Positions 13,983-28,876 of a stretch of 28,877 nt of DNA are shown in pieces. Below the pieces are notes generated by a model. The model saw nothing but the letters and a program-made list of their open reading frames with translations. It did not search any database and had not been told where the DNA came from. The position numbers and the translations under genes were made by a program. Positions within the stretch are counted from its first letter, which is position 1. Each line of letters begins with the position of its first letter. The stretch covers positions 1 through 28,877 of IMG/VR virus record IMGVR_UViG_3300022822_000069. One strand, written 5' to 3'. The stretch is from a virus.

Positions 13983-14010
13983 TTGACAAGATAACATTTA
14001 TAACTATATT
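13983..14010 (+). promoter_or_regulatory. Rightward sigma70-like promoter of the replication genes
   Basis: TTGACA (13983-13988), a 16-nt spacer, TATATT (14005-14010). The expected start point (about 14017) is next to the ATG at 14018, giving a leaderless or nearly leaderless transcript. It overlaps an oppositely oriented promoter. Confidence 0.65.
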
Positions 14011-14015
14011 GTCAA
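13988..14015 (-). promoter_or_regulatory. Leftward sigma70-like promoter of the SNF2 helicase gene
   Basis: Read on the minus strand: TTGACA (14015-14010), a 16-nt spacer, TATCTT (13993-13988). The expected start lies near 13981, leaving a leader of about 17 nt with a purine-rich stretch before the ATG at 13964. The perfect inverted repeat CTTGACAA / TTGTCAAG (13982-13989, 14009-14016) makes both -35 boxes mirror images. Only one polymerase could bind at a time. Confidence 0.6.
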
Positions 14016-14017
14016 GC

Positions 14018-14374
14018 ATGAAAGAAAATAAAGTTTATGTCATTCAAACAATTGCTGGTACTGCAGAAGGTAGACCTAAAATAAATATTATGGGCGCATC
14101 AAAATATGGTGAGTTTGTTTTTTTATTACCGGAACTTTCTCAAATAATATTTTCTCCTGGTCCATTAATTTTTAAACTTAGAAAAGCTTTAAAAGATTTT
14201 ACGACAGAAGATCATTTATTATTAACTGGAGATCCTGCAATTATTGGTGTGGCCTGTTCGATAGTTTCTGACATGACTAACGGTAAATACAATTTACTAA
14301 AATGGGATAAACAAGAAAGACAATATTATCCTATTCAAATTAACTTATATGAAAGAGGAAAGATAGATGAGTAA
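14018..14374 (+). CDS. Conserved phage hypothetical protein, 118 aa
   Basis: A TTG at 14009 could extend the frame, but it falls inside the -10 region, so the ATG at 14018 is chosen. The product is MKENKVYVIQTIAGTAEGRP..., with a mixed alpha/beta pattern (GEFVFLLPELSQIIFSPGPL, LLLTGDPAIIGVACSIVSD, NLLKWDKQERQYYPIQINLY). I recognise this as a recurrent small protein at the head of replication operons in marine phages, without known activity. There are no Cys or catalytic motifs. It is the first gene after the rightward promoter, lacks a ribosome-binding site and overlaps the next gene by 8 nt. Confidence 0.75.
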   Translation: MKENKVYVIQTIAGTAEGRPKINIMGASKYGEFVFLLPELSQIIFSPGPLIFKLRKALKDFTTEDHLLLTGDPAIIGVACSIVSDMTNGKYNLLKWDKQERQYYPIQINLYERGKIDE

Positions 14375-14921
14375 TATAGACTTTGAGAAAGACCAAACAA
14401 AAATGTTAGGGAAGACTGAAAACATTCAGTCACTAGCAGATCAAGTGGAGAAATTAAATTTTTTAGATCAAGAAGTAGAAATACTAGAAAAAAATCTAAA
14501 ACAAAAAAAGAAAGATTTTGAATATCTATCGGGAGAAGTTATTCCAACCATGATGGCTGAGATGGGTTTGTCTCATCTTAAACTTATGGATGGTTCTTCA
14601 GTAGATGTAAAACCAAATTACAGCGCAAACATTACTATTGCTAATAGAGATGCTGCGTTTAACTGGCTTCGTAACAATGGACTAGGAGATATAATCAAAA
14701 ACGAGATATCCGTATCTTTTGGTCGCAACGAGGATAACAAGGCCGCTGATTATGCGAACCTTGCAGCAGAGCGTGGGTATCAACCAACACAAAAGTTGAA
14801 GGTTGAGCCCATGACTCTCAAAGCGCTAGTTCGGGAGCGTATTGAAAACGGCAAAGAAATGCCTACCGAGCTTTTCAACGTATTCGTTGGAAATAAAACA
14901 ACAATAAAAAGGAAACAATAA
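14367..14921 (+). CDS. Conserved phage protein with N-terminal coiled coil, 184 aa
   Basis: Residues 20-60 form a heptad helix (LADQVEKLNFLDQEVEILEK and following). A small beta segment follows (LSHLKLMDGSSVDVKPNYSANI), then a helical domain (DAAFNWLRNNGLGDIIKNEI) with SVSFGRNEDNKA. The combination recurs in phages beside ssDNA-binding proteins, but its function is unknown to me. AGAGGAAAG precedes the ATG. The last 70 codons are about 48% G+C with many G/C-ending codons, against roughly one third G+C for the window, and the shift is abrupt near 14700. It ends two bases before the probable ssDNA-binding protein, suggesting related roles. Confidence 0.72.
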   Translation: MSNIDFEKDQTKMLGKTENIQSLADQVEKLNFLDQEVEILEKNLKQKKKDFEYLSGEVIPTMMAEMGLSHLKLMDGSSVDVKPNYSANITIANRDAAFNWLRNNGLGDIIKNEISVSFGRNEDNKAADYANLAAERGYQPTQKLKVEPMTLKALVRERIENGKEMPTELFNVFVGNKTTIKRKQ

Positions 14922-14923
14922 AC

Positions 14924-15691
14924 ATGAACCAAGTAATAAAAAAAGAAGAAGCAGGCGCGTTAGCTACAAATATGTTTGAAGCTGATGCAAATCATGGCAT
15001 AGAAAATATGTCGCAAGAAGACCTTGCATTACCTTTTCTAAAGGTGTTAGGACAACTATCACCGGAAGTTAATAAGACACATGCAAAGTATAAAGTCGGT
15101 GCTGAACCTGGTATGATTTATAATACAGTTAGCGGTCAATTTTTTGATGGCTCTAAAGGTATTGACATTATCCCTGTTCATTATCAAAGACAGTTAGTAG
15201 AATGGCAAGATAGGGGAGCCAGTACAGGCGCTCCAGTTGCAATTCATAACGCTGAAAGTGATATCATGAGTAAAACAACTCGTGATAAATCTTACAAAGA
15301 TAGATTACCTAATGGTAACTATATCGAAAACACAGCAAATCATTTTGTGCTTATGTTAGGGGATTCACCTACAACAGCATTGATTTCTATGAGAGCTACT
15401 CAATTAAAAATTAGTAGAAAATGGAACTCAATGATGATGGGAATTAAACTACAAGGTAAAAATGGTATGTTTACTCCGCCTACATATAGCCACATTTACA
15501 AACTAAAGACTGTTCAAATGTCAAATGACAAAGGAACATGGTATGGTTGGGATGTGTCACAGGTAGGTCCGGTATCAGATAAAAGTATCTATGATATGGC
15601 TAAAAATTTTGCAGAGCGTGTAAGCGCAGGTGAGATTGCAGCTAAACCTGAAAATCAAGAACAACCAAAAACAGATAAAATAGTTTTATAA
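14924..15691 (+). CDS. Probable single-stranded DNA-binding protein, 255 aa
   Basis: The core (about residues 35-200) has LALPFLKVLGQLSPEVNK, a beta-rich block (GMIYNTVSGQFFDGSKGIDI, then IPVHYQRQLVEWQDRG), and later PTTALISMRATQLKISRKWN and GTWYGWDVSQVGPV. The tail is flexible, rich in Glu/Gln/Lys, and ends in DKIVL. This layout and the position between replication genes match a phage family often annotated as ssDNA-binding. An acidic flexible tail is usual for SSBs, but here it is mixed in charge, so I keep moderate certainty. AAGGAAA precedes the ATG. A stem-loop follows the stop and separates it from the primase gene. Confidence 0.6.
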   Translation: MNQVIKKEEAGALATNMFEADANHGIENMSQEDLALPFLKVLGQLSPEVNKTHAKYKVGAEPGMIYNTVSGQFFDGSKGIDIIPVHYQRQLVEWQDRGASTGAPVAIHNAESDIMSKTTRDKSYKDRLPNGNYIENTANHFVLMLGDSPTTALISMRATQLKISRKWNSMMMGIKLQGKNGMFTPPTYSHIYKLKTVQMSNDKGTWYGWDVSQVGPVSDKSIYDMAKNFAERVSAGEIAAKPENQEQPKTDKIVL

Positions 15692-15743: not shown

Positions 15744-17213
15744 ATGAATGAAATTAAAAACCTAAATAAAGGTCCGCTTACGTATGAGGACTGGTACGAT
15801 CTTGGCTATACTCTGGTGCCTTGTGAGGGAGGCAAGCCTACAGTTAAAAAATGGAGTGATGCCGATTTTAAAATAAAGAAAGAAGAATGGAAAAACAAAC
15901 ATTTAGATAAAGAAATAGGATTAAGATTAGATAACGTAGTTGATTTAGATCTTGATAACACGCGCGCAAAAGTTTTTGCACATAAATATTTAACAAATTG
16001 TGGCACTATATCCGGTAGAGAACATAACCCTACAAGCCATTATTGGTTTAAAGCAAAATTACCGGCACAGAAATTTTCATTACCAAAAGACCTTGAAAGA
16101 TATGTTGAACATGCGGCACATGGACAAACTTTATGCGAAATAAGAAGTACTGAGACTTGTTATACAATCGTTCCAGGATCATTACATAGTAAACATAGAG
16201 AACATGTAAGATGGGAAAAGTATGCAGGCTTTAATGAATATGTAGGCGACTTAAATAAAATTTTAAGAAAAATATCTTTAGCTACTGCTCTATCAATTTT
16301 ATATGCACCTAAAGGTCAAAGAGATGAATATTGTACAGCTATTGCTGGAGTTTTAATTAAACAAACGGATTGGGACGATACTGAAATCAATGATTTTATT
16401 TATGACATTGCAGTAGAATCTAATGACGATGAATCTGAAAATAGAAAAAATAAAGGTTCAACAACAAGAAAATCTAAAAAACCATTCGGCATGCCTAAAC
16501 TTGCAGAAATAATTGAATGCAGGATTGAAAGTGTTGCAACAATATTCAGTTGGATAGGCGTTCAAGATAAAGCTTTAGTTGAAGTTAAACAAATAGCGGA
16601 CGATTCAATAGGAGATATTGTTGAGTATGGTCAAGATAGATATAAAATACGAGTATCTGGTAATTTAGAAGGCGTAGCATTTACTAAAACTATTACAGTT
16701 GATGGACCAACGCTCATGAACCAGGGAAAATTTTATGATGCGGTTATAATTCAAGCTGAAGTTTGGCTACCTAAAATGAAAGCAGCCCAATTTGAGGAAA
16801 TAATGAAAATGAAATTTGAATCCAGAACTAAATCAAAAGACTACGTAGAAGAAGCGGACGAATCTTTTGTATTTAAAAAACATTTTATTAATTATATTAA
16901 AATTAAAAAAGCCTTCACAGATAAAGAGCAATTAGTTAACTATGGGAGTCCTTATTTTAATCAACAAAATAATCAATTAGAATTTAATTTAGATGAATTT
17001 GAAAGTTACTTACAAGAACAAAGAATAAATCATAAACGAGTAGATCTTGTTTTAAAAATTCAAGACATATTAAAAGCCACTAAAAAAAATGGTAAATACA
17101 AAAATAAATCTTTGGTGTCTTGGGTAATCGATAATCATAAAATTGAAAATGAAGATCTTATGGTAGAAGGAACTAGTGAAGAAGTTAAGGAGGTAAATTC
17201 TGAACGAGCCTAG
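15744..17213 (+). CDS. Archaeo-eukaryotic primase-polymerase (Prim-Pol), 489 aa
   Basis: This is likely the replication primase. The N-terminal domain has the family's opening LGYTLVPCEGGKPTVKKW (about 19-37), the metal-binding motif VDLDLDN (66-72; Asp67, Asp69 and Asp71 are candidates), the TSHYWF His motif (97-102) and CEIRSTETCYTIVPGSLHSK (131-150), equivalent to the third conserved region. Residues 170-290 form a helical region, and the C-terminal 200 residues show no helicase motifs. The helicase is encoded separately by the next gene, with which it overlaps by 14 nt. There is no ribosome-binding site; the GC-rich hairpin above is the only leader element. A +1 frameshift fusion with the helicase is conceivable but less likely than separate initiation. 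Confidence 0.82.
   Translation: MNEIKNLNKGPLTYEDWYDLGYTLVPCEGGKPTVKKWSDADFKIKKEEWKNKHLDKEIGLRLDNVVDLDLDNTRAKVFAHKYLTNCGTISGREHNPTSHYWFKAKLPAQKFSLPKDLERYVEHAAHGQTLCEIRSTETCYTIVPGSLHSKHREHVRWEKYAGFNEYVGDLNKILRKISLATALSILYAPKGQRDEYCTAIAGVLIKQTDWDDTEINDFIYDIAVESNDDESENRKNKGSTTRKSKKPFGMPKLAEIIECRIESVATIFSWIGVQDKALVEVKQIADDSIGDIVEYGQDRYKIRVSGNLEGVAFTKTITVDGPTLMNQGKFYDAVIIQAEVWLPKMKAAQFEEIMKMKFESRTKSKDYVEEADESFVFKKHFINYIKIKKAFTDKEQLVNYGSPYFNQQNNQLEFNLDEFESYLQEQRINHKRVDLVLKIQDILKATKKNGKYKNKSLVSWVIDNHKIENEDLMVEGTSEEVKEVNSERA
17187..17193 (+). promoter_or_regulatory. Strong ribosome-binding site that decides a non-AUG start
   Basis: AAGGAGG lies inside the 3' end of the primase gene. Downstream in the helicase frame there is a stop at 17194-17196, so the only codons before the Walker A motif are ATT (17197), CTG (17200), then AAC, GAG, CCT. 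CTG is six bases from the ribosome-binding site, the best spacing. Confidence 0.7.
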
Positions 17214-18876
17214 ATTTATTGCAGGTCCTCCAGGTACCGGTAAAACTCACAAATTTATTGTGGATACCTATATGAAAGCTTTAGCAAAATATACTCCTGA
17301 AAAAATTATAATTTTATCTCACACTAATATAGCTGCCAATGAAATTAGAGATGCTATTTTTGATTTAAAAAATTTAAAAAATGAAGAAGGAAATTATACA
17401 TTTCCACAATTACGAGGAATTACTAAAAAAGCAATGAAATATAGAGTATGTACTATTCATACTTATTGCAAAAGTAGATTATTAAAAAAAGAAGTGTTTA
17501 AGTTACATAATCATAAAGAATTAATAAACAAAGATAGTCGTTTTAATCTTCACAGGGAAGATGACATAAAACGTAAACATAGATTTTATAAATACTTATC
17601 AGACGCTGACGGACATGGAGAAACTTTAGATAAGTATTGGATTAAATGCGATCAAAAATCTTTTGAGCCTTACAGTTTAAAATTGATTAAAGAGTTACTT
17701 CCACTTTATGAAAAATATAAAAAGGATAAAACTCTTTGTGATTTTTCAGATATGGTAAATAATTTTACACGTCAAACGTATAATGAAAAAACTAAACAGT
17801 GGGAAGATGACGTAAAAGATCCAGATATAGATATGTTAATTATAGACGAATGTCAGGATTGTAATGTACCCCAAAGAAAAGCTATTGATAAAATGGCAAG
17901 AAACGTAAAAGAAGGACATTACTATTTAGTCGGAGACGCAGATCAAACCTTATTTGAGTATTCAGGATCAGATGCAGAATATTTTCACAACTTAGCTGCA
18001 AATCCTTATTACGAATTAAAAAATGGTAATAGATGTGGTGAAGCTATTAATACGTATTGTAAATCAATTATAATGGATGTTTGGGATCATTATAAATCTC
18101 ATAGAGTGTGGACTCCAGCAAAGTATAAGAAGGGTCCTAACGAAGACGAAGTTATTAAAGGAAAAGGTTATTATTTACCAGATTTAAAACCATCAGGACA
18201 TTTAGATAAACTTTTAGATAAAATTAAAAATACTGAGGAAACATTTCTATTTACTTATAGAGGAACTCCAAGCGATGTACGTTGTACAGATTTTCTTATA
18301 GCACAAGGTATAGAATTTGCTCCAGTAAGTAAGCCTCCATTTGTAATTAAAAAAGAATTAAGGGCTCACAAATTATGGCCAGATTTTATTAAAGGTATTC
18401 CAATGGATCTTACTTTGATAAAAAATTTTTGTGAATATTTAAATAAGGATTTGATTGTCGGAGATAGATCTAAAACAGTAGAAACTCTTAAAACATGGAT
18501 TAAAACAGATTACACTGTAGATTATTTAATAGATAAAAAATTATTAAAGTCTAGTTGTAAAGGCCATAAAGATTTTGATCTTATAAGAGCGCCAGTTAAC
18601 AAACATAAAGAAAGAATGAAATATATAAAAAGGGTTTTACATAACGGTTTTGATTTTGATAAAAAAGTTAGAGTTGAATATGCAAACATTCATACTGTTA
18701 AAGGTTTAACATATGATAATGTTATTGTTGACGAAACTGTCGTTAATAAAGATCCTTATTTTACTTCACTAAGACTACAATACACTGCATACAGCAGAGG
18801 GATTTTTGACTATTGGAGATTAGCAAAAATGCCCGGAAAATACTTTACAATAGGAAAAAAAAATGAGTGCTTATAA
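17200..18876 (+). CDS. UvrD/Dda-like superfamily-1 DNA helicase, 558 aa, CTG start
   Basis: It has a full SF1 motif set: Walker A AGPPGTGKT (residues 8-16), motif Ia IILSHTNIAANEIRDAI, VCTIHTYCKS, motif II MLIIDECQDCNVPQ, motif III YLVGDADQTLFEYSGS, motif IV-like NGNRCGEAI, motif V IHTVKGLTYDNVIVDE and motif VI YTAYSRG. The first ATG/GTG/TTG in frame is GTG 17260, which would remove Walker A and inactivate it. The frame is closed by a stop at 17194, so translation must begin at CTG 17200 (or ATT 17197), served by AAGGAGG. It is probably the replicative or recombination helicase acting with the primase and PolA. Calling the gene from 17260 would be an annotation error. Confidence 0.85.
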   Translation: MNEPRFIAGPPGTGKTHKFIVDTYMKALAKYTPEKIIILSHTNIAANEIRDAIFDLKNLKNEEGNYTFPQLRGITKKAMKYRVCTIHTYCKSRLLKKEVFKLHNHKELINKDSRFNLHREDDIKRKHRFYKYLSDADGHGETLDKYWIKCDQKSFEPYSLKLIKELLPLYEKYKKDKTLCDFSDMVNNFTRQTYNEKTKQWEDDVKDPDIDMLIIDECQDCNVPQRKAIDKMARNVKEGHYYLVGDADQTLFEYSGSDAEYFHNLAANPYYELKNGNRCGEAINTYCKSIIMDVWDHYKSHRVWTPAKYKKGPNEDEVIKGKGYYLPDLKPSGHLDKLLDKIKNTEETFLFTYRGTPSDVRCTDFLIAQGIEFAPVSKPPFVIKKELRAHKLWPDFIKGIPMDLTLIKNFCEYLNKDLIVGDRSKTVETLKTWIKTDYTVDYLIDKKLLKSSCKGHKDFDLIRAPVNKHKERMKYIKRVLHNGFDFDKKVRVEYANIHTVKGLTYDNVIVDETVVNKDPYFTSLRLQYTAYSRGIFDYWRLAKMPGKYFTIGKKNECL

Positions 18877-19069
18877 AAAACAAGTAGGAGGATCACATTA
18901 TAAAGATATGATTATTCAACCCGCAGACTTTATTAATAAAAACAAATTACTTTTTGCAGAAGGAAACGCAATTAAATATATCTGTAGACATCAGTCGAAA
19001 GGTAAGTTACAAGACATAGAGAAAGCTATTCACTACTTAGAAATGATAATAGAAAGGGATTACAAATAA
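18863..19069 (+). CDS. DUF3310 family protein, 68 aa
   Basis: The domain fills the whole protein: VGGSHYKDMIIQPADFI (residues 8-24), then FAEGNAIKYICRHQSKGK, and the closing helix LQDIEKAIHYLEMIIERD. The GSHY...IQP, NAIKYICRH and DI.KA..YL blocks are the family signature. Members occur in many phages, and a related segment occurs in T7 gp1.7, a nucleotide kinase; whether this short form has any activity is unknown. Its start overlaps the helicase stop and its stop overlaps the polymerase ATG, so it is embedded in the replication operon. A role in nucleotide supply is inference only. Confidence 0.85.
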   Translation: MSAYKKQVGGSHYKDMIIQPADFINKNKLLFAEGNAIKYICRHQSKGKLQDIEKAIHYLEMIIERDYK

Positions 19070-21165
19070 TGTGTACAGTTCCACAATTAAAAGATCTAGA
19101 TTTAACTGATATAGATACTGTTGCAATTGACTTAGAAACTTATGATCCTAATTTAAAGACAAAAGGATTAGGGGCTATAAGAAAAGATGGCTTTGTTACA
19201 GGTATAGCAATCGCTACTAAGAACCAGACTTTGTATTTCCCTATTGCTCACCACATGACTGATAATTTAAATACCAAAGAAACTTGGACCTATTTAAATG
19301 AAAAGATTTTTCAAAACAAAAACATACGTAAGGTATTTCATAATGCTATGTACGATGTCTGTTGGATTAGATCGGCAACTGGAGACATGCCTCAAGGAGA
19401 ATTGTTAGATACTATGATTGCAGCATCAGTTATTGATGAAACTAGAATGAGATATTCACTAGACTCTATAAGTAAAGATTATTTAAATGAAACTAAATAC
19501 AAATATGATTTAGCTGAAAAAGTTTTAGAGTGGTCTAATGGAATGATAAAAGATCCCATGTCTAATATGCATAAATTACCTCATCATTTAGTAAAAGATT
19601 ATGCAGAGCAAGATGTAAACTTAACTTTAAAATTGTGGGAACTATTTGAAAAAAAATATCTGGACGCGGTATTATACACAAAAACTAATCCAGATGGAAG
19701 TAAAGAATACAAAACTTGTAGAAAAATATTTGAATTAGAAACTAAATTATTTCCTTGTTTGGTTGACATGAAGTTTAAAGGAGTTAAAATAGATGTCGAA
19801 AAAGCTAAGGCACTTGGTAAACTTTTAGAAAAACGTAGAGATAATTTATTAAAAATTATTAAAAAACATACTGATGTTGATGTAGATATATGGGCCGCTT
19901 CTTCTATCAAAGCTCTTCTTGAGCATGAAAAAATTACAGATTATGAAAAGACAAAAGACCGTAAGAAAAAAATAAAAGGTAAGGACGGTAAAAATATTCT
20001 TGATGAGAAGGGTGAACCTAAAACAGAATTAGTTCCATCAACAACTCCTAAACTTCCAAAAGATTATTTAAAAACACATAAGAATCGTTTCTTAAGAATG
20101 ATTGTAAAAGCAAGAGAGTGTGACAAAGCTAAGAATACTTTTGTTGAAGGTCTACTAGGCTTTGTTCATGAAGGAAGAATACATGCAGACATCAATCAGA
20201 TTAGATCGGACCAAGGAGGAACGGTTACTGGAAGATTCTCAATGTCTAATCCTAACCTACAACAGATTCCATCAAGAGGAATTATAGGTAAAAAGATGAG
20301 AGAGCTTTTTGTACCGGACGACGGCTGTGTATGGGGATCATTTGACTACTCACAACAAGAACCTCGTATCGTGGTCCACTATGCTTTAACTTTATACCCT
20401 TATAAGAATCCAGATATTGAGATGCCTAATAATTTAAGGGAAAGTTTAGAGAAGATTGAAGAGTCTTATAAAAGTGGATTTGATGTAGACTTTCACCAGG
20501 TTGTTGCAGACATGGCTCACATATCACGGACCATGGCCAAAACAATTAACCTTGGACTCTTTTATGGTATGGGTAAAATAAAACTAGCTAGTGAATTAAA
20601 TTTAACTAAACCTCAAGCTAACACTTTGTTTAATACTTACCATGAGAAAGCTCCATTTGTTAAAAAGTTATCTCAAGATTTAATAGAATTTGCAGAGGAT
20701 AATAAATTATTATTTACATTAGGAGATAGATTTTGTAGATTTAATAAGTGGGAAACTAAAGATAGAGCCTGGAACAACGCTAGTAATAGATATGAACCTG
20801 TCCCTATATTATCAGAAGAAGACGCTAAAACAGCCTTTAAAGCCGAGTTATTAGACAAATATAAAGACCATATAGCTGATAATTATATGAGTGATTTTAC
20901 TAAATATTATAAACCTGCTTTTACATACAAAGCTTTGAATAGATTAATTCAAGGAAGTGCAGCAGATATGACTAAGAAAGCTATGGTAGAACTTTATGAA
21001 CAAGGAATTTTACCACAAATACAAATACACGATGAGTTGTGCCTATCAATTAAAGATGATAAACAGGCCAATATAGTAAAAGAAACTATGGAAAATGCAG
21101 TTCCTCTTAAAGTGCCTAACAAAGTAAATTACAAAAAAGGTAAAAATTGGGGTTCAATAAAATGA
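19069..21165 (+). CDS. polA: Family-A DNA polymerase with 3'-5' exonuclease, 698 aa
   Basis: This is the replicative polymerase. Exonuclease motifs: DLETYDP (Asp21, Glu23), FHNAMYDVCW (Asp96) and DYAEQDVNLT (Tyr178, Asp182). Polymerase motif A is DYSQQEPR (Asp426). Motif B is SRTMAKTINLGLFYG (Arg487, Lys491, Tyr499). Motif C is IHDELCL (His654, Asp655, Glu656). All catalytic positions are present, so both activities are expected; there is no 5' nuclease domain. The residue matching E. coli Phe762 is Leu495. Residues about 293-337 are a Lys-rich insertion (KTKDRKKKIKGKDGKNI) that looks like a flexible loop, possibly for DNA or partner binding. It overlaps its upstream neighbour by one base and the next small gene by four. 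Confidence 0.96.
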   Translation: MCTVPQLKDLDLTDIDTVAIDLETYDPNLKTKGLGAIRKDGFVTGIAIATKNQTLYFPIAHHMTDNLNTKETWTYLNEKIFQNKNIRKVFHNAMYDVCWIRSATGDMPQGELLDTMIAASVIDETRMRYSLDSISKDYLNETKYKYDLAEKVLEWSNGMIKDPMSNMHKLPHHLVKDYAEQDVNLTLKLWELFEKKYLDAVLYTKTNPDGSKEYKTCRKIFELETKLFPCLVDMKFKGVKIDVEKAKALGKLLEKRRDNLLKIIKKHTDVDVDIWAASSIKALLEHEKITDYEKTKDRKKKIKGKDGKNILDEKGEPKTELVPSTTPKLPKDYLKTHKNRFLRMIVKARECDKAKNTFVEGLLGFVHEGRIHADINQIRSDQGGTVTGRFSMSNPNLQQIPSRGIIGKKMRELFVPDDGCVWGSFDYSQQEPRIVVHYALTLYPYKNPDIEMPNNLRESLEKIEESYKSGFDVDFHQVVADMAHISRTMAKTINLGLFYGMGKIKLASELNLTKPQANTLFNTYHEKAPFVKKLSQDLIEFAEDNKLLFTLGDRFCRFNKWETKDRAWNNASNRYEPVPILSEEDAKTAFKAELLDKYKDHIADNYMSDFTKYYKPAFTYKALNRLIQGSAADMTKKAMVELYEQGILPQIQIHDELCLSIKDDKQANIVKETMENAVPLKVPNKVNYKKGKNWGSIK

Positions 21166-27245: not shown

Positions 27246-27443
27246 GTGATGAGCTTCTTACCCCTTTTCATCACCGTTGCAACAGCACCTATCATTACCC
27301 AATATTACAGAAGCATGGATCATGGAACACGGACCAATTATTATTATTCTCATCATTCTCATAGGTGTACGACAAGATCAATTATTCCTGGTGGATGGAA
27401 CACGAGAAAGGTTGACAAACATCCCAAAGTATCCTATATATAA
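27246..27443 (+). CDS. Possible small membrane protein, 65 aa
   Basis: GTG 27246 (or ATG 27249) opens a frame MSFLPLFITVATAPIITQYY, a signal-like hydrophobic start, followed by a Tyr/His/Ser-rich polar part. It has no clear ribosome-binding site and overlaps the frame at 27322 for over 100 nt. One or both may be real. The 215-nt stretch between 27231 and 27447 holds nothing else except promoter copy B. Confidence 0.35.
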   Translation: MMSFLPLFITVATAPIITQYYRSMDHGTRTNYYYSHHSHRCTTRSIIPGGWNTRKVDKHPKVSYI

Positions 27444-27450
27444 GACATGA
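27322..27450 (+). CDS. Possible single-span membrane peptide, 42 aa
   Basis: The frame reads MEHGPIIIILIILIGVRQDQ, then LFLVDGTRERLTNIPKYPIY. A strongly hydrophobic span follows a short acidic start, and the stop overlaps the ATG at 27447 (ATGA), as elsewhere in the region. AGAAG lies eight bases upstream. It competes with the frame starting at 27246. Confidence 0.45.
   Translation: MEHGPIIIILIILIGVRQDQLFLVDGTRERLTNIPKYPIYKT
27412..27440 (+). promoter_or_regulatory. Strong sigma70-like promoter (copy B)
   Basis: TTGACA (27412-27417), a 17-nt spacer and TATATA (27435-27440). It is a near-copy of the promoter at 23009, sharing GGTTGACAAACATC and AGTATCCTATATA. The expected start falls on the ATG at 27447, or gives a 51-nt leader for the ATG at 27498. 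Confidence 0.75.
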
Positions 27451-27497
27451 AAGAAATAACATTTATCGGCCTTCATATAGCCTACAGGAGAAAAATA

Positions 27498-27698
27498 ATG
27501 AATAAGAAAAAAAGAATATGGAATAACTGTATTACTCCCTCTCTTTCATTAATTAAATATCAGAATAAATTTGATAAATTAATGATACAAATTGAGAGAG
27601 ATAAAATCTTAAAAAAAGTGCCGGGTAATCATATTAGAGGAATGGCTGTTCAAATGATTAAGAGTTTAAATAGCTATTTGAAAACAAATAGACTGTGA
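27498..27698 (+). CDS. Small basic hypothetical protein, 66 aa
   Basis: AGGAG (27486-27490) lies seven bases before the ATG at 27498, which I prefer. An in-frame ATG at 27447, exactly at the predicted transcription start, would add 17 residues (MKEITFIGLHIAYRRKI). The product is basic and helical: ITPSLSLIKYQNKFDKLMIQ, then VPGNHIRGMAVQMIKSLNSY. A small DNA-binding protein is likely by charge. Past the stop, another frame continues with CSNCGKIK, a possible lost zinc knuckle. It is the last gene before the repeat array. Confidence 0.6.
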   Translation: MNKKKRIWNNCITPSLSLIKYQNKFDKLMIQIERDKILKKVPGNHIRGMAVQMIKSLNSYLKTNRL

Positions 27699-27751
27699 GA
27701 CTGAATTGTGTTCCAATTGTGGCAAGATTAAAGCAAAATAAGGCAGATTAC

Positions 27752-27984
27752 TGCGACACCCAAGGTGTCGCAAGGTATCGCATAAATGCGTTTTATGCGG
27801 GTTTTGCTATCGCAGGGTGTCGCGAGATTTCTGTTTTTCTGTGTCATTGTGTCGCATGTCTGTATACTTATGTCGCAGGTAAAGCCCATATAGAGAAAAA
27901 ACTGCGATAGCTACCTTGAAAAAAATGGCGTTAAATGAACAACTGCGACACCTGCGATACCACTGCGACACCCCAGGTGTCGCA
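27752..27984. repeat. Nested large inverted repeat built from the TGCGACACC elements
   Basis: The left half (27752-27782) is the inverted counterpart of the right half (27953-27984), differing only in a 3-nt centre and a 1-versus-2-nt linker. Nested inside, GCTATCGCAG (27806-27815) is the perfect inverse of CTGCGATAGC (27902-27911). Variants pair with matching variants: GGTATCGCA with TGCGATACC, and CTATCGCA with TGCGATAG. It can form a long cruciform or RNA stem. Confidence 0.75.
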
Positions 27985-28120
27985 TGTTTTTGGTCAAATG
28001 GACAGCGGTTACCAACACTTCTAGGAGATAGGTCAACATTATTTACTTCTTGCGACACCTCCCAGGATTTTTTAGCGCAAATAAATAAAAAAAATAAAAA
28101 TATGCTCTTTAGGTGTCGCA
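27752..28120. repeat. Array of 14 TGCGACACC elements (iteron-like)
   Basis: Exact plus-orientation copies start at 27752, 27944, 27964 and 28051. Exact reverse copies (GGTGTCGCA) start at 27764, 27976 and 28112. Variants are GGTATCGCA 27774, CTATCGCA 27807, GGTGTCGCG 27816, TGTGTCGCA 27848, TATGTCGCA 27869, TGCGATAGC 27903 and TGCGATACC 27953. Two perfect palindromes with 3-nt centres lie at 27752-27772 and 27964-27984. Spacing is irregular. A binding array for a replication, packaging or recombination protein is the best guess. Confidence 0.85.
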
Positions 28121-28143
28121 GCACCAAAGCTGCCTTATTTTAA
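28118..28143 (+). terminator. Possible weak intrinsic terminator
   Basis: GCAGC (28118-28122), loop ACCAAA, GCTGC (28129-28133), then CTTATTTTAA. The stem is only five base pairs and overlaps the last repeat element, so termination may be weak. Confidence 0.35.
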
Positions 28144-28206
28144 ACACAATTGAGGCAATTTTTATTTTCCCTGTTCGTGCCTATATTTTTGATATATAGA
28201 GGTTTC

Positions 28207-28527
28207 ATGCCTAAAAGAAAAAACAAATCTAGAAATTTAAACACCTATTCTAAACCTAAATTGATTAAACAAGAGGTTACATTCCCCTATTCAAGATATA
28301 AAATAGATTGGTGTGACATCGTCACTGAAGGCGGTTGGGGATCTGAAAAAGAATTTAATAACATGAAATTAGCAACTCCAGTAAGTGAAGGTTATCTTTT
28401 TAGTAAGGATAAACACACTGTAAAAATTTTTGCGGGTTATGATATTGATGATGATGGTACTATTACTTTTTCTGAACGATCGGTGTTTCCGACTTCGTGT
28501 GTTCTGAAGATGACGAAACTTCATTAA
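28207..28527 (+). CDS. Conserved phage hypothetical protein, 106 aa
   Basis: ATG 28207 with AGAGG four bases upstream is preferred to TTG 28150, which would add 19 hydrophobic residues. The N-terminus is very basic (MPKRKNKSRNLNTYSKPKLI). The rest is a small beta domain: RYKIDWCDIVTEGGWGSEKE, MKLATPVSEGYLFSKDKHTV, FAGYDIDDDGTITFSERSVF and a closing helix. The pattern (W.D...E.GW, GYL...KD..V, ER..FP) recurs in a widespread phage family of unknown role. Its last 65 bases overlap the minus-strand terminase gene tail to tail. Confidence 0.65.
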   Translation: MPKRKNKSRNLNTYSKPKLIKQEVTFPYSRYKIDWCDIVTEGGWGSEKEFNNMKLATPVSEGYLFSKDKHTVKIFAGYDIDDDGTITFSERSVFPTSCVLKMTKLH

Positions 28528-28876
28528 CTTCTTCTTCTAATGCATCAACAGTCTTCATATTTAACATCGGAGCGTAGTCTTCTAAAATCTTTTTCATCTT
28601 TAATTCTATTTCTTCCTCTGACATATCTTCTATTTTTCCATGTTTTATTATTTTTCTGTCTATGTATAGTCCTGCTGCCTTGCCTCGAGATACTTCAGCG
28701 TTTACAGCAGAAGAGAAACTCCCTTTCTTCAAAGCCGCTGTCTTAATTCTGTCTAGTTCAGCTAAATGTTTATCGTACGTAACTTCATGTTTAGCTAATC
28801 TCTCTTGTTTAAGTGAATCTACATATTGAACTACTAATGGAGATAGTCTAGGATTTAATAACTCTGATCCTTCTAC
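28463..28876 (-). CDS. Probable terminase small subunit (5' partial), about 137 aa visible
   Basis: The frame runs in from the right edge, so the start is missing. The TTG at 28732 is only an internal Leu. The visible part has PRLSPLVVQYVDSLKQERLA, HLAELDRIKTAALKKGSF, SSAVNAEVSRGKAAGLYIDR, then KIEDMSEEEIELKMKKILED and an acidic, Ser-rich tail. The helix pattern with L.ELDRI..AALKKG...AVNAEV.RGKAAGLY is typical of small terminase subunits, which bind the packaging site and recruit the large subunit. It is transcribed toward the repeat array. The antisense orientation relative to the structural genes is notable. Assignment is by pattern, without a search. Confidence 0.7.
   Translation of the reverse strand, partial: VEGSELLNPRLSPLVVQYVDSLKQERLAKHEVTYDKHLAELDRIKTAALKKGSFSSAVNAEVSRGKAAGLYIDRKIIKHGKIEDMSEEEIELKMKKILEDYAPMLNMKTVDALEEEVNEVSSSSEHTKSETPIVQKK

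Follow-up and report, generated by a model that had tools for sequence, protein, structure and literature searches.

Origins of the iteron type, such as the lambda ori recognised by the O protein and those of the iteron plasmids, are characterized by clustered short words with helical phasing and a neighbouring AT-rich tract. Multi-site targets of the terminase small subunit (TerS), situated close to terS itself, occur in other phages. A fusion of AEP-PriCT-1 to a lambda O-like domain is described in PMC5862659, whose reference list also cites the initiator primase of plasmid ColE2. For the pelagiphages related to the DNA studied here, the main texts of PMC9599517 and PMC11066056 contain neither 'origin of replication' nor 'intergenic', and in the portion of PMC9516812 bearing on pelagiphages and a replication origin, the origin discussed is that of the host.

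The window, i.e., the whole stretch of DNA analysed, corresponds to the viral record IMGVR_UViG_3300022822_000069 at its full length of 28,877 bases. Its replication module includes genes for a primase-polymerase (15744-17213), a UvrD-type helicase (17260-18876) and a DNA polymerase A (PolA; 19069-21165), all on the plus strand, the latter displaying 45% identity to PolA of Pelagibacter phage HTVC027P; three genes located 5' of the primase (14009-15691) match the Pfam families of Pam3 phage gp32, gp33 and gp34. The repeat array lies in a gap between two ORFs, one of 83 aa that ends at 27698 and a conserved one of 106 aa (28207-28527, plus strand; phrog_25889), the latter used here as the right-hand marker. 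The gap is 5' of this small ORF, which is convergent with terS (28463-28876, minus strand), a gene that is partial at the window end and complete in the close relative L012 (L012:994-1539), where its product matches Terminase_2 (E 5.1e-08). In L012, TerL is found 5.6 kb beyond TerS, and a GP88-family gene (L012:2857-3465, minus strand) is placed between terS and terL. Phages HTVC027P and 023Pt_psg01 (psg01) display a window-like gene order (p2402, primase, helicase, PolA, exonuclease, gap and antisense terS), including small ORFs between the gap and terS, and HTVC023P carries related genes whose order differs in part. In HTVC023P, where terS is on the plus strand, five copies of CTAGGAAA are found immediately 5' of this gene (L030:11680-11770). 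In a large family of pelagiphage-like viruses, kin to HTVC027P, the array has a syntenic position.

The word TGCGACACC occurs in seven exact copies, as the preliminary description had reported, all at 27752-28120 and none elsewhere in the record. When up to one mismatch was allowed, 11 matches (seven exact and four with one mismatch) were obtained in the whole window, all of them within the array, against an expectation of 1.48 and a maximum of 4 in 100 shuffles. The total of 14 elements given previously varies with the definition of a variant, since a looser definition yields 13 TGCGA/TCGCA cores in the gap. The region had also been called gene-free, which is true in substance; the ORFs of 53-106 aa that run over the repeats are presumably non-coding. 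GTGGCAA and AAGGCA repeats flank the array, the left border (27701-27749, plus strand) containing both together with AAAATAAGGCAG, and two inverted pairs join the borders (27701-27724 with 28131-28154, and 27735-27749 with 28127-28141). From left to right, the array consists of a first palindrome, TGCGACACC-CAA-GGTGTCGCA (27752-27772); a stretch of mostly minus-strand words (27774-27911), with copies at 27774, 27816 and 27848 and looser variants up to 27911; a right cluster (27944-27984) in which three plus-strand words are spaced at 9 and 11 bp and the third falls inside a second palindrome (27964-27984); an anchor, TTACCAACACTTCTAGGAGATAGGTCAA (28009-28036, plus strand); a single plus-strand word (28051-28059); a 52-bp tract of 77% A+T (28060-28111, plus strand), regarded as a candidate unwinding element; and a last, inverted word on the minus strand (28112-28120). 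Both palindromes have the 3-nt centres previously noticed. Between 27778 and 27984, inverted array words are followed by T runs in a terminator-like arrangement.

A scan for inverted word pairs recovered 19 viral stretches, of which 17 were AT-rich and two were GC-rich outliers; judged by eye, the AT-rich ones fell into three groups whose arrays are related. Further, a TerS scan returned at least 570 relatives, the best 80 of which were used. The start of the small ORF served as the cutting point for homologous gaps, given that loci L047, L059, L091 and L102 carry an extra stretch between TerS and this ORF; 77 gaps were obtained from 93 sources, the remaining 16 being dropped for having no ORF or less than 450 bp (among them L582, whose array was seen separately). 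Gaps cut at a fixed distance from TerS underlie the TerS tree, spacing, independent-contrast, two-peak and nearest-neighbour results given below, and none of those four loci is in the tree of 36 TerS. With the change from fixed distance to ORF-start cutting, the gaps whose commonest 7-mer exceeded all 100 shuffles went from 36/70 to 42/77, and the class of the rows typed from PolA was unchanged. An apparent discordant pair, L102/L103, vanished once the gaps were cut at the ORF start.

No word above all shuffles was found in the other 35 of the 77 homologous gaps, HTVC027P included; thus, loci that keep the flanking genes and lack a detectable array, which the preliminary description would have taken as refutation, do exist in part of the family. 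At least six CGACA/TGCGA-type words (hereafter, CG-type) were counted in 25 of the 77 gaps, a figure that includes the doubtful L052 and L594, and in the fixed-distance gaps these counts were sharply two-peaked, at 0-3 or 10-25. The CG-type count of G074 is 12, with one of 100 shuffles reaching its commonest 7-mer. The words themselves differ among relatives, and include TGCGACA, CGCGACA, CGACACC (as TTCGACACC), CCGACAC, GTTCGCA and CCGATAC, as well as ATGTCCA, TGACAAA and TGGTAAA. Unlike the window, psg01 has TGGCACA in its gap and HTVC027P shows no above-chance word, and both have a primase of the other type described below. A degenerate form of the anchor was present in 52 of the 77 gaps, 26 in each orientation, with the window's orientation in 16 of the 25 CG-type gaps; the pattern was derived from these same gaps, and it also matches elsewhere, with 86 occurrences over 496 kb of TerS loci when the gaps are counted. 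By eye, in a subset of loci, the anchor mostly precedes a word and an A/T-rich tract. Also by eye, a palindrome near TTAGAA-NNN-TTCTAA was noticed in or beside several arrays, mostly between two word clusters (mid-array in L033, L036, L050, L060 and L070), with a similar one in L110 and L111 and none in the window.

The spacing of the words had been described as irregular, which is half right. In 16 related CG-type arrays, same-strand neighbours at most 40 bp apart cluster at 11 bp (37 times), 21-22 bp (14 times) and 30-33 bp (nine times), with 9, 10 or 12 bp occurring 20 times; this set contains some near-copies, and each array was scanned with its own chosen word. The AT-rich tract that separates the final two words of the array has 77% A+T, against 64% A+T in L012, and is kept in all five close relatives aligned. 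The array therefore resembles iteron origins in that a single short word is repeated with helical phasing next to an AT-rich tract. It differs from those of lambda and the plasmids in that its words stand in both orientations and in that some 10.5 kb separate it from the candidate initiator gene considered below; the window proteins that were scanned included no O-like one. The earlier proposal of a multi-site target for a binding protein is well supported, and among the functions then listed a replication origin is now the best reading; as to the recombinase arm sites on the same list, no integrase was noticed in the course of the analysis. On balance, we favour a phage replication origin of the iteron type, with somewhat better than even confidence. 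A phage-encoded initiator would bind the repeated word, largely on one helix face, the bound words forming two clusters that mostly face in opposite directions; melting of the AT-rich tract (28060-28111) would follow, and the primase, helicase and PolA would be loaded there. The detrended cumulative GC skew has no extreme at the array in G001 or HTVC027P and gave no consistent signal; in psg01 its maximum (13657) falls at the array, beside a gene-strand switch on the terS side, and nothing is drawn from it because of this nearby switch.

The origin reading connects the array with the replication genes. Primase, helicase and PolA occur in two types, the window's own (W-type) and another (H-type), and the two primase types are alignable over residues 297-450 only (probability 52%, E 1.5e-4). 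The gene located 5' of the primase shows 75-97% identity to that of the window in both types, as whole or partial IMG/VR copies (in G005, 71% over 82 residues). A CG-type array was found in 11 of 12 W-type records (the window, G006, G034, G001, G010, G011, G003, G047, G048, G074 and G075) and in none of the 12 H-type records (G004, G005, G026, G027, G030, G031, G058, G071, G076, G077, HTVC027P and psg01); in these sets, G006 is a near-copy of the window, G001, G010 and G011 are near-copies of each other, HTVC027P and psg01 are distant H-type members, and G030, G031, G058, G071 and G075 were typed from PolA alone. The exception is G073, with W-type primase, helicase and PolA and yet no CG-type words. 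PolA scans gave loci with the gap in 5/80 (W-type) and 4/80 (H-type) cases, some counted before. The association between array class and replication type is numerically strong and weak in independent events, as it corresponds to one independent contrast on supported branches and three on all branches.

As for the protein that would read the words, the primase-polymerase is a tentative candidate for the initiator through its predicted C-terminal winged helix (residues 372-473), and we regard this assignment as possible though doubtful. In a structure model built from 25 sequences (mean pLDDT 82.2), the first part resembles the PrimPol domains of pRN1 ORF904 (VIA Z 9.1) and NrS-1 (Z 7.3), and residues 372-473 resemble the winged helix of SCCmec Cch (Z 7.6), an oriT-binding protein (Z 6.3) and ORC/Cdc6 (Z about 4.5), where values of Z below 8 may reflect a common arrangement. 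This predicted combination of a PrimPol fold with a C-terminal winged helix would be akin to initiator primases and to fusions of AEP with origin-binding domains. A Foldseek search with the model gave no match at E of 0.001 or lower, the primase profile matched no PDB sequence, and sequence support consists of one weak PHROG match, phrog_21866 (E 1.8e-8).

At a fine scale, the winged helix does not change with the word. The primases of G034 and G047 are 99% identical in the winged helix and 100% in the rest compared, and their words are TGCGACACC and CGCGA(C/T)ACC, respectively; conversely, the window and G034 are almost alike in their arrays and 64% identical in the winged helix. The winged helix diverges more than the rest of the protein when the window is compared with G034, G001, G047 and G003, and it is not the more divergent part against G048 (59 against 54%). 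Either the reader tolerates changes in the first base of the word or it is another protein, perhaps encoded nearer the array. These observations slightly lowered our confidence in the origin reading, to the level stated above. Loci G034 (L200/L584) and G047 (L213/L582) are alike from the primase to about 10.5 kb, beyond which G034 is window-like (93-100% per ORF) through the exonuclease, array and TerS; G034 looks like a natural recombinant, as far as its sequence suggests.

Among the alternatives, a packaging start (pac or cos), at which TerS would bind the words and packaging would begin, fares best, and we consider it unlikely. Like known sites of this kind, the array is multi-site and adjoins terS, as it does in the loci read, and in HTVC023P the repeated words lie directly 5' of terS with the exonuclease located elsewhere. 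Furthermore, the nearest neighbour predicts the right array class in 54/63 cases for TerS, 56/63 for its first 75 residues, 41/49 for the exonuclease, 50/62 for the small ORF, 50/55 for the nuclease and 25/29 for the 69-aa gene, so that no single protein stood out as the reader (one locus, L102, is misclassed in this set). On the tree of 36 TerS, array class requires six changes, below all 500 shuffles (mean 12), at least four being forced by starred branches; the clustering implies that TerS and the array are not independent by descent, and the changes imply that arrays were exchanged between TerS lineages, a point in favour of the origin reading. However, residues 1-75 of TerS, its DNA-binding end, do not differ between L090, which carries CCGACAC, and L109, which carries AGTTCCA, and the whole TerS of L072 (TGCGACA) shares 94.9% and 95.6% identity with those of L064 and L067 (ATGTCCA). 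Since identical or near-identical TerS go with unrelated words, TerS is unlikely to be the reader, and the packaging site bound by the small terminase, as put forward in the preliminary description, is disfavoured. Moreover, 57 of the 80 contigs (the best 80 of at least 570) extend at least 1200 bp beyond the TerS match, and contig ends show no pile-up at one place, which speaks against fixed ends at the array and is compatible with headful packaging.

An operator or enhancer array, at which a phage regulator would bind the words and control early or convergent genes, is in our view less probable still than packaging. The array has the early block on one side and terS on the other, and repeated phased words would suit a cooperative regulator, but this reading alone leaves the link to the primase, helicase and PolA type unexplained, and a scan with a sigma-70-type consensus gave four promoter-like sites in 27400-28600 against 4.5 expected. 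A terminator or structured RNA built from the inverted words is very improbable: terminator-like sites in 27400-28600 numbered five where 0.5 were expected, and array words form three of them, but a terminator needs neither a concerted change of its copies nor clustered spacing, and Rfam gave nothing at the gathering threshold.

Returning to the origin reading, relatives whose neighbouring genes are almost unchanged differ in a word that has switched together in its copies, which raises a bolder proposal, namely that in this family of abundant ocean phages the origin is a specificity-typed locus where the initiator of each lineage would fire its own origin class, one that co-infecting relatives of another class would be unable to use. 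We hold this to be improbable, more so than at first because near-identical primases go with words differing in their first base. If true, competition within the cell would have driven lytic phages to a form of iteron incompatibility. A bounded, alignable site with switching words would make an origin testable in cultivated members, HTVC027P for example, and the array variants would form a natural set for studying the evolution of origin specificity in lytic phages.

Words of the same kind were also found outside this family. Scans for direct pairs gave at least 120 viral and at least 116 genome stretches; 230 new loci were taken from these, of which 29 have five or more TGCGACA within 500 bp; six of the 29 were flagged as pelagiphage-like. 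A further likeness to iteron origins is that, in some unrelated phages or prophages, the window's word sits within initiator genes of the O-like or DnaD-like kind: TGCGAC words lie within an O-like initiator gene of a GC-rich phage contig recovered by the inverted-pair scan (L026:10919-11854), and in L462 a word array lies inside a DnaD/O-like loader gene. Other word arrays adjoin primases (L373, L430) and DUF3987 helicases (L467, L455), the proteins near arrays having been hand-picked, so that they constitute a lead and give no rate. Several of the 29 dense loci are inside long coding ORFs or next to unrelated genes, the latter including a methyltransferase (L394), an exonuclease (L446), a sulfur-metabolism gene (L358) and a folate-type gene (L568). 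In L365 the array is about 0.9 kb from TerL, and in L008, the other outlier of the initial scan, the words adjoin an HTH ORF.
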